Below, piece after piece: positions 3,948-10,197 of a stretch of DNA of 10,395 nt. A program made the translations under genes and the position numbers. The stretch covers positions 1 to 10,395 of the forward strand of contig JAOUOK010000022.1 in NCBI GenBank assembly GCA_029880425.1, in the 5' to 3' direction. This DNA comes from Gammaproteobacteria bacterium (GTDB lineage Bacteria > Pseudomonadota > Gammaproteobacteria > UBA6429 > Thiohalophilaceae). Position 1 is the stretch's first letter. Every line of letters begins with the position of its first letter. The notes beneath the pieces are model-generated. The model was not told the origin of the DNA. It searched no databases and worked only from the letters and a program-made list of their open reading frames with translations.

Positions 3948-4979
<1,032 letters not shown>

Positions 4980-4989
4980 ATGATATACC

Positions 4990-5013
4990 GGCCGGGATTT
5001 TCCCGGCCTTTTT
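4990..5013 (+). terminator. Intrinsic terminator of ilvBHC
   Basis: GGCCGGGA at 4990-4997 pairs perfectly with TCCCGGCC at 5001-5008 around a TTT loop. TTTTT follows directly at 5009-5013. It begins 11 nt after the ilvC stop and should end the ilv transcript before the Psd-like gene. Confidence 0.92.
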
Positions 5014-5043
5014 AATTGTTTAAGAAAAAATCTAATAAATTCA

Positions 5044-5676
5044 ATGGCTGTATCTCGACACCCAATTATTGCGAAAGAAGGCTGGGGCTTAATTTTTGCC
5101 CTTAGTGCAATTGTTGCATTACTGCAGCATTTTGTTAGTCATTACATGGCCTTGTTATGGTTTTTTCCCCTGGCGGCACTATGGCTTTTTCGTGATCCTC
5201 ATCGTCTTTTACCTTCTGAACCGCTTGGAATAGTCAGCCCGGTAAGTGGTACGGTTATTCTTGCTAAAGAGCATCCTGATCCTTTCCTCGGGCGAGATGC
5301 CTTTTTATTTCGAATTTCGGTTTCACTCATGGACATCTATTCAATCCGTAGTGTTACGGAAGGTAAAATTATTCAACAATGGCTCGATCCTGAGGAAGAT
5401 GATGACGATGAACGTTCATTGGCTCATGCTATACAACTAAAAACTGATGAAGATGATGATATTATGGTCGTGCTGCGGCCAGGTCGTTTTTTTAAGAAGT
5501 TAAGTTGTGATGCCGTGATTGGTCAGCGCATTGGGCATGGACATCGTTGTGGGATTATTCCATTTGGTGCCAATGTCGATGTATATGTGCCACTCTCAAG
5601 CGTAATTAAAGTAGCAGTGGGGGATCATGTTGAGGCAGGAATTAGTTTTCTTGCTTCACTAAAACATCGTGCCTGA
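5044..5676 (+). CDS. Phosphatidylserine decarboxylase-like protein, triad residues lost
   Basis: This 210-residue protein matches the short (PSD-A type) phosphatidylserine decarboxylase family in length and layout. It has two N-terminal hydrophobic segments (about 14-30 and 33-48), then LFRDPHRLLP and a lipoyl-like beta domain ending GIIPFGANVDVYVP and VAVGDHVEAG. Active enzymes cleave themselves to form a pyruvoyl group, using an Asp in a PADG motif, a His in a DVHVNR motif and a Ser in an FGSRVD motif. The aligned stretches here read PVSG (S68), DIYSIR (Y99) and FGANVD (A176), so all three are replaced. Self-processing and decarboxylation are therefore not expected. Acidic runs occur at about 115-123 and 135-139. 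It lies 31 nt after the ilvC terminator and upstream of pssA, which makes PE. A regulatory or structural role is inferred. There is no obvious ribosome binding site before the ATG. Confidence 0.85.
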   Translation: MAVSRHPIIAKEGWGLIFALSAIVALLQHFVSHYMALLWFFPLAALWLFRDPHRLLPSEPLGIVSPVSGTVILAKEHPDPFLGRDAFLFRISVSLMDIYSIRSVTEGKIIQQWLDPEEDDDDERSLAHAIQLKTDEDDDIMVVLRPGRFFKKLSCDAVIGQRIGHGHRCGIIPFGANVDVYVPLSSVIKVAVGDHVEAGISFLASLKHRA

Positions 5677-5724
5677 TTTTAAAACTCATTTAATATCAAT
5701 AATCTAGCTGTATATTTTTCTTTT

Positions 5725-5751
5725 TTGAAATAACGACTATATCTGTATAGT
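5725..5751 (+). promoter_or_regulatory. Candidate promoter for pssA
   Basis: TTGAAA at 5725-5730 (5 of 6 to the -35 consensus) is followed after 15 bp by TATAGT at 5746-5751 (5 of 6 to the -10 consensus). The spacing is short, which would weaken it. It lies in the 204-nt AT-rich gap before pssA. Confidence 0.3.
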
Positions 5752-5779
5752 TCATAATAATTTTTACTATCCCCCTTTT

Positions 5780-5795
5780 ATATATTTAAATATAT
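5780..5795. repeat. 16-bp perfect AT palindrome upstream of pssA
   Basis: ATATATTTAAATATAT is its own reverse complement. It lies about 85 nt before pssA and about 30 nt after a candidate promoter. It could be an operator or a DNA-bending site, but an A/T-only palindrome in AT-rich DNA has little specificity. Confidence 0.35.
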
Positions 5796-5880
5796 CGCGT
5801 AAAAAGTGACGAGTAGGTTTCCTTAAAACACCGTTATTGGTGTATCCTTTGAGCTGGGATTTCCATCAGAACTGATCAAT

Positions 5881-6654
5881 ATGAACGCTAATATGACAAC
5901 AAAAAAACCGCGTCGCGGCATCTATTTATTACCCAATCTTTTTACCACGTCGGCTTTGTTTTGTGGTTTTTATGCCATCGTTTCTTCCATAAATGGAAAG
6001 TTTGAAATTGCCGCGATTGCTATTTTTGTTGCCATGGTACTCGATGGAATAGATGGCCGGGTTGCACGTTTGACCCATACAGAGAGCGATTTTGGCGCCG
6101 AATATGACAGCCTCGCGGATATGGTTTCGTTTGGCCTGGCACCGGCACTGGTGATGTATTTATGGATTTTGTCAAACTATGGCAAGCTCGGATGGATAGT
6201 TTCATTTGTCTACGTGGTCTGTGCAGCTCTACGCCTTGCCCGTTTCAATACCCAGGCAACTCATACGGATAAAAATTATTTCCAGGGGCTGGCCAGCCCG
6301 GCAGCGGCAGCCATTGTGGCAGGCTTAATCTGGAATGGACCATTAATTACGCAATACTTGTCACAACCGGCCCTTAATATGTTGGCTTTAGTTTTAACCT
6401 TGAGTGCTGGCTTATTGATGGTTAGTAATGTTCGCTACCATAGCTTTAAAGGCATCAACTGGCGGAGTAAAGTTCCGTTTGCCACGATTTTAATGATTGT
6501 TTTAGCGCTGGTATTCGTGACAATTGCACCTGAATTATTGCTATTTGGCGGCTTCTTTATATATGCCTTGTCGGGTCCCGTGTATACCTTAATATTATTG
6601 CGTCGCCGCCGTGCTGAACGGGCGCAAAATAAGCAGCATGATAAAGTGGATTAA
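5881..6654 (+). CDS. pssA: CDP-diacylglycerol-serine O-phosphatidyltransferase
   Basis: This integral membrane enzyme transfers phosphatidyl from CDP-diacylglycerol to serine, giving phosphatidylserine, the precursor of phosphatidylethanolamine. The 257-residue protein carries the complete CDP-alcohol phosphatidyltransferase signature at 58-80: D58, G59, A62, R63, G72, D76 and D80. These fit DG-x2-AR-x8-G-x3-D-x3-D, and the acidic residues bind metal. Several hydrophobic segments lie between about 18 and 240, and the C-terminus is basic (RRRRAERAQNK). The N-terminus, GIYLLPNLFTTSALFCGFYA, is typical of the Bacillus/proteobacterial type II PssA, which is unrelated to the PLD-type PssA of E. 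coli. No strong ribosome binding site precedes the ATG, and a second ATG at 5893 is possible. It follows the Psd-like gene, a common pairing, but by 204 nt. Confidence 0.95.
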   Translation: MNANMTTKKPRRGIYLLPNLFTTSALFCGFYAIVSSINGKFEIAAIAIFVAMVLDGIDGRVARLTHTESDFGAEYDSLADMVSFGLAPALVMYLWILSNYGKLGWIVSFVYVVCAALRLARFNTQATHTDKNYFQGLASPAAAAIVAGLIWNGPLITQYLSQPALNMLALVLTLSAGLLMVSNVRYHSFKGINWRSKVPFATILMIVLALVFVTIAPELLLFGGFFIYALSGPVYTLILLRRRRAERAQNKQHDKVD

Positions 6655-9975: not shown

Positions 9976-10197
9976 TTAGCCTGAAATGATATCGGGATGA
10001 AGTCCTTTGTGATGTAATTTATCCATTACCAGCATTGGAATATTAAAGTGTTCTTCATATTCTACAAGCATATCATGTGGAACTTTTGAATTGACTTCAA
10101 CATTAGTAACATGCGGAAGAGATTGCATAAGTTGTTTTAGTTCATTAAGAGATTTTTCGTCGAGAGTTTCATCGATATAGACTTGTATTGAATGCAT
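9976..10197 (-). CDS. Small HMA/ferredoxin-fold-like protein without CxxC
   Basis: This is a 73-residue cytoplasmic protein with no signal peptide, no membrane segment and no cysteine. An initial strand (MHSIQVYIDE), a helix (LDEKSLNELKQLMQSL), a strand (VTNVEVNSK) and a later helix/strand (about 43-70) resemble the beta-alpha-beta-beta-alpha-beta order of heavy-metal-associated domains. The LPHVTNVEVN stretch recalls the 'pGVxxVxv' of that fold. The metal-binding CxxC is absent, although His residues are present (H2, H29, H41, H50, H62, H63, H67). The Shine-Dalgarno sequence is excellent: GAGG lies 6 nt before the ATG (10204-10207 on the minus strand). It converges on rimI across an 80-nt gap. 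I recognise the shape only, and the function is unknown. Confidence 0.75.
   Translation of the reverse strand: MHSIQVYIDETLDEKSLNELKQLMQSLPHVTNVEVNSKVPHDMLVEYEEHFNIPMLVMDKLHHKGLHPDIISG

Follow-up and report, generated by a model that had tools for sequence, protein, structure and literature searches.

The main finding of this study is that a gene at positions 5044..5676 (+ strand) of the window (the whole 10,395-nucleotide stretch of gammaproteobacterial DNA analyzed here, contig JAOUOK010000022.1 of assembly GCA_029880425.1) encodes a very probable pseudoenzyme of 210 amino acids (aa) with the fold of phosphatidylserine decarboxylase (Psd). As judged by alignments and trees, this protein is a member of a short-Psd subfamily set apart by one branch, in which the catalytic His, and usually the Ser as well, has been lost, the fold and the locus have been kept, and new residues have been fixed. 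Phosphatidylethanolamine (PE) is the main phospholipid in most Gram-negative bacteria and, to our knowledge, the regulation of its synthesis in bacteria is poorly known. A conserved dead Psd encoded beside pssA, the gene for phosphatidylserine (PS) synthase, is a concrete candidate regulator of this synthesis, and it appears to have been replaced as an enzyme by a member of its own superfamily and kept for a different use. The best overall explanation, to which we give an even chance of being right, is that it is a conserved membrane-anchored pseudoenzyme left in place after a long Psd took over, and that it tunes or scaffolds the PS-to-PE step.

Fold and triad sites of the window protein

The gene, delineated from a list of open reading frames (ORFs), Pfam and a predicted structure, starts with ATG, and its 210 codons include no internal stop. 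The encoded protein has two hydrophobic N-terminal helices followed by a mostly beta domain. It shows both the domain and the fold of the Psd family, with a PF02666 match of 30.1 bits against a Pfam cut-off of 22; none of the 11 curated NCBIfam Psd models listed reaches its cut-off, the best being PRK05305.1-5 at 122.1 bits against 262. The AlphaFold2 (AF2) model has a predicted local distance difference test score (pLDDT) of 84.4 and a predicted template modeling score (pTM) of 0.79, residues 116-125 being the sole internal segment with a pLDDT below 50, and a structural alignment places model residues 12-174 onto residues 22-252 of Escherichia coli Psd, in agreement with the triad placement given below. 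Among the sequences of solved structures, the near-relative profile returned just two chance matches (E 0.66-0.67), and an active short Psd (L053) returned no match up to E 1.

The original prediction that all three residues of the self-processing triad are replaced was borne out by aligning the window protein to active short Psds and to 58 long Psds, the latter chosen by a script demanding GST and an H-x-x-H/Y-like motif. In this alignment, S68 (codon 5245..5247, on the + strand like all codons below) faces the Asp of SP[AV]DG, Y99 (5338..5340) faces the first His of DYHRIH, which is essential in active Psds, and A176 (5569..5571) faces the cleavage-site Ser (of G-S) that becomes the pyruvoyl group, a placement with which the structural alignment agrees. 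These sites correspond to D90, H144 and S254 of E. coli Psd, a numbering transferred by aligning the long Psd of the host genome with the E. coli protein. According to a study of E. coli Psd (PMC7952604), the self-cleavage set is D90/D142-H144-S254, with D142 a second Asp able to replace D90; H144 mutants make no PE, slow cleavage persists in H144 and D90/D142 mutants, and S166/V167 touch the lipid phosphate. For the Asp, the prediction therefore holds at the D90 equivalent, which is S68, and not for the stand-in D142, which is retained as D97. The cleavage dipeptide of the window protein is G175-A176 rather than Gly-Ser and, because of this Ala, no pyruvoyl would be expected by the known route. 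A 7-residue gap is found in the window protein where the E. coli S166/V167 stretch aligns, the loop at residues 116-126 is altered, and the N125/E126 pair seen in the active form is missing from the alignment. Since the phosphate-contact loop is shortened, and is also unconserved, canonical PS binding is unlikely, which weakens the earlier suggestion that the protein binds PS or PE.

The same sites were inspected in the near relatives of the window protein, that is the best 120 of 219 matches in one search (query included, 72-100% identity), to which all counts in this paragraph refer. Residue 99 is Tyr in 62 and Phe in 58 of them and His in none (0/120), residue 68 is Asn in 91, Ser in 13, Asp in 13 and Thr in three, residue 97 is Asp in 120/120, and at residue 176 Ser (85) is commoner than Ala (35). 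The recurrence of substitutions at residues 99 and 68 argues against a sequencing slip, and the presence of Tyr or Phe at residue 99 throughout suggests that the loss of the His is old. Because most of these relatives keep the Ser at residue 176, the loss of all three residues is not a general feature, whereas that of the His is.

A His-less subfamily across the class

A profile built from 29 relatives matched 123 of the 369 genomes searched in the class. The 148 family proteins compared comprise 123 from the class draw together with 24 His-less proteins and one active protein from a same-family set, for which stretches were taken from 25 genomes in the window's family. They split into two kinds, 21 with the active pattern and 127 without the His, the active short Psds counted being those caught by the near-relative profile, so that the class may hold others. 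The active-pattern rows have the His in 21/21, the Ser in 21/21 and the Asp in 20/20 cases, one protein being truncated; in the His-less rows the His is found in 2/126 (neither with the Ser), the Ser in 22/125 and the Asp in 111/125. Letters at all three triad sites are present in 123 of the 127 His-less rows, of which 88 keep the Asp only, 19 the Asp and the Ser, two the Ser only, two the Asp and the His, 12 no triad residue and none all three. At the level of sequence, loss of the His is a constant trait of the subfamily. Loss of all three is not the defining trait, being limited to the 12/123 rows among which the window protein falls.

The subfamily also has conserved residues of its own. 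E106 (5359..5361) is Glu in 125/126 His-less rows and in 3/21 active short Psds, and R162 (5527..5529), within GxRxGQGxRCG, is Arg in 126/126 and 8/21, respectively. The D135-E136-D137-D138 codons (5446..5457) lie in a [TS]DExDD motif, in which D135 and E136 are each found in 126/126 and D138 in 122/126 His-less rows; the corresponding columns of active short Psds have Asp in 10/21, Glu in 6/21 and Asp in 4/19. In the predicted model, D135-D138 lie in the turn between strands 128-133 and 139-145. G164 (124/126), Q165 (116/126) and C169 (100/126) are likewise kept among His-less rows. A search for a Ser, His and Asp conserved at other positions of the protein gave none common to the subfamily and a few invariant candidates within the near relatives (S103, S125, H128, D115, D121 and D135, each invariant in the best 120 of 219). 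Among class-wide His-less rows, H128 is His in 30/126 and S125 is Ser in 11, conservation too poor for an alternative triad common to the subfamily, and H208 is the one column with His in over half of the rows (104/125).

These proteins call for an annotation warning, as many His-less members carry the enzyme name: the catalytic His is missing from every one of the 20 listed proteins named "phosphatidylserine decarboxylase" by their source, and from 115/115 rows of the same alignment. Separately, one gene (G220:C1:678833-679381, L170), in a one-contig genome, has an internal stop in the matched stretch, which is not seen in its congener G080, and the His-less genes of G239 and G298 are likewise flagged with one stop in the matched stretch.

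Origin, locus and selection

When the four triad columns were masked, one branch parted His-less from active rows (Shimodaira-Hasegawa-like approximate likelihood ratio test, SH-aLRT, 100) in a tree of 145/148 rows, from which three fragments shorter than 150 aa had been dropped. In a second tree with 15 active Psds from other classes, 22 active Psds of the class and 41 His-less rows (the window's and 40 random ones, with seven long-branch rows set aside), the His-less rows again lay on one side of a single branch (SH-aLRT 100); both trees were quick ones, computed without bootstrap and midpoint-rooted for drawing only. The active pattern is seen in 15/15 Psds sampled outside the class but within the phylum (among the 20 of 111 matches that have loci), and the His and the Ser are present in all of these 20 matches except the window's own row.

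The locus is shared by the two kinds. In the window, the upstream neighbor is an ORF at 3963..4979 (+) that we take, by its sequence, to be ilvC, and the downstream neighbor at 5881..6654 (+) is pssA, encoding a type II PS synthase (CDP-alcohol phosphatidyltransferase; TIGR00473, 131.8 bits against a cut-off of 107). Of 127 His-less loci, 120 have ilvC upstream on the same strand and 120 have pssA downstream (107, plus 13 with an overlapping stop-to-stop frame); for the 21 active short loci the numbers are 19 and 17, and several loci without an ilvC or pssA neighbor stop at a contig edge. Going by gene order, the common ilvC-X-pssA arrangement fits a change in place rather than transposition. 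Frames of 568-577 aa in G097, G252 and G350, considered as possible gene fusions, proved to be stop-to-stop frames running back over ilvC, with PF02666 as the only Pfam match.

Among congeners, the ratio of nonsynonymous to synonymous substitution rates (dN/dS) of the Psd-like gene is 0.027-0.078 in the three pairs where dS is about 0.2, most congener pairs being near synonymous saturation. The corresponding ratio of proportions of differences (pN/pS) against the window is 0.14-0.24 for this gene (seven congeners), 0.12-0.19 for pssA (six) and 0.06-0.09 for ilvC (six). By these measures the window gene is under purifying selection.

A canonical psd, sought elsewhere in the genome, was found on another contig of the host genome; it is a long psd of 285 aa, intact and retaining PVDG, DYHRIH and MGST. 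Together with the subfamily-wide loss of the His and purifying selection, this upholds the original view of a maintained pseudoenzyme. Across the 369 genomes, 97 of the 103 with a His-less gene have a second PF02666 match at E<=1e-45, and in each of the 20 genomes that carry an active short Psd PF02666 matches that single gene (Fisher p 4.6e-18, relatedness ignored). The second match is weaker in G213 (7e-32), and a strong one is absent from five genomes, G123, G226, G252, G275 and G350. The genus of G252 and G350, represented here by two draft genomes (96 and 95% complete), matches PF02666 only through the His-less gene; in the family of G123, also represented by two drafts (93 and 86% complete), there is no strong Psd and no PF02666 match; and family relatives of G275 do carry a strong Psd that G275 itself lacks, all these being draft genomes. 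Two genomes of the window's family have further PF02666 matches. In one, L214 (G036:C157; 4.7e-35, 231-aa frame) occurs besides the long Psd and was missed by the near-relative profile, and in the other L216 and L217 (G015:C14 and G015:C17) are open frames of 513-521 aa.

As for other features of the window, a strong hairpin with a T tail resembling an intrinsic terminator lies between ilvC and the Psd-like gene (4990..5008, +; consensus match only), and no sigma-70-like promoter turned up in a scan of window positions 4900-5950. Between the end of a class II tRNA synthetase gene and the ilv genes lie the genes of two small proteins with hydrophobic N termini, one with a DUF4124 match (931-1341, -) and one without a Pfam match (644-913, -), and a 73-aa frame at 9976-10197 (-) has no Pfam match.

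Discussion

The window gene is almost certainly functional rather than decaying, and its product is very probably not a decarboxylase; we infer that it forms no pyruvoyl and decarboxylates nothing. In the explanation that we favor, a long E. coli-type Psd would have taken over PE synthesis, freeing the old short Psd, which would have lost catalysis in situ and stayed as a conserved pseudoenzyme. Through its new acidic and Arg residues, the pseudoenzyme would bind a protein or a small ligand at the membrane and thereby tune or scaffold the step from PssA to Psd. That it is a membrane-bound, noncatalytic regulator or scaffold of PS/PE synthesis has a nearly even chance of being correct. A bolder version, which we advance tentatively and which is somewhat more likely to be wrong than right, is that of a class-wide, singly originated dead-Psd family rebuilt on new charged residues, exerting membrane control over PE synthesis as a bacterial counterpart of prozyme, and hidden by the enzyme name that many members carry in databases.

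Several observations weigh against this explanation. First, type II pssA is present in 345/369 genomes of the class, mostly without a His-less gene, from which it follows that PssA does not generally depend on the His-less protein and that their co-occurrence is uninformative. Second, rate covariation showed no signal specific to PssA (partial r 0.32, n 90), being higher for LeuA (0.54, n 41) and IlvB (0.42, n 53). Third, the place beside pssA is common to the active short form too and, like the covariation, lends no support to the earlier idea that the protein partners PssA. Fourth, in G111 (L139) and G238 (L140) the His-less gene is beside ilvC and pssA is on another contig, and several genomes of the window's family have no His-less gene. 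Fifth, the count of second Psds rests on score, not on a residue-by-residue reading of catalytic sites. Sixth, G005, a genome of the window's genus outside the 103 and 20 genomes compared, has a long Psd, an active short Psd and a His-less form, the last two (L215 and L199, on C283 and C251) each in a separate ilv-psd-pssA cluster; G005 is a 540-contig draft in which contamination is possible, and L215 is counted among the 21 active rows. Finally, S176 persists in part of the class-wide rows (22/125) and in most near relatives (85 of the best 120 of 219), which may cleave slowly, and the invariant residues of the near relatives may form a Ser/His/Asp triad private to this group or to the window's genus.

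Other explanations have to be considered. The protein might be a new enzyme, its Psd groove rebuilt on E106, D135, E136, D138 and R162 for another reaction, with a soluble metabolite or the head group of a phospholipid as substrate. Five charged residues that are near-invariant at class-level divergence go beyond the needs of a bare scaffold, and C169 is also widely kept; however, nothing ties the protein to any other enzyme, and in the model the D135-D138 turn would suit a surface as well as an active site, so we regard this explanation as unlikely. By analogy with prozyme, a dead paralogue known to act on a pyruvoyl decarboxylase (PMC5201418), the protein might instead be an activator that pairs with its cell's long, active Psd in a mixed dimer and controls the processing or activity of that enzyme. 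The strong second Psd match in nearly all genomes with a His-less gene would provide the partner, but in the host genome the long psd sits on another contig, and six of the 103 genomes, drafts, have a weak second match (G213) or no strong one, making such an activator rather improbable.

Two further possibilities are much weaker than these. A Psd that processes itself with other residues could be imagined given the slow cleavage of E. coli H144 and D90/D142 mutants (PMC7952604), the retention of D97, the frequent S176, and the invariance of S125, H128 and D121 in the best 120 of 219 relatives. However, the E. coli H144 mutants described there make no PE, the 116-126 loop is changed with loss of N125/E126, and H128 and S125 are not common to the wider subfamily, so self-processing is very improbable. 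A decaying pseudogene or annotation artefact, to which the lost triad and the single stops in three His-less genes among the 103 genomes (G220, G239 and G298) might point, is scarcely credible in view of purifying selection, 219 homologues of which the best 120 are at least 72% identical, and residues near-invariant across the class.

The favored explanation, a pseudoenzyme retained beside pssA, can be set against four known systems. The active short Psds (PF02666; PRK05305 models) share its family, length and ilvC-X-pssA order and are one branch away. Unlike them, the window's subfamily lacks the His in 124/126 and the Ser in 103/125 rows, has lost the 116-126 motif and mostly occurs in genomes with a further Psd; each of the 20 genomes with the active form has a single Psd. 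Compared with the long E. coli-type Psd (PDB 7CNX, 6L06), the window protein lacks the equivalents of H144 and S254, and an active gene of that type is present separately in its genome. The likeness to EIIA-Glc (PDB 3OUR chain B, 1GLA, 1F3G) is one of fold only, and the window protein has N-terminal hydrophobic helices. Our searches of the open-licence PubMed Central (PMC) literature turned up no report of a Psd pseudoenzyme, which does not prove that none has been published. What is known already is that pyruvoyl decarboxylases can have pseudoenzymes, namely prozyme of trypanosome S-adenosylmethionine decarboxylase (PMC5201418). Prozyme differs in substrate and pathway, and its partner binding is demonstrated, whereas for the window protein binding is only proposed; the two are alike in being dead paralogues of a pyruvoyl decarboxylase beside an active one.
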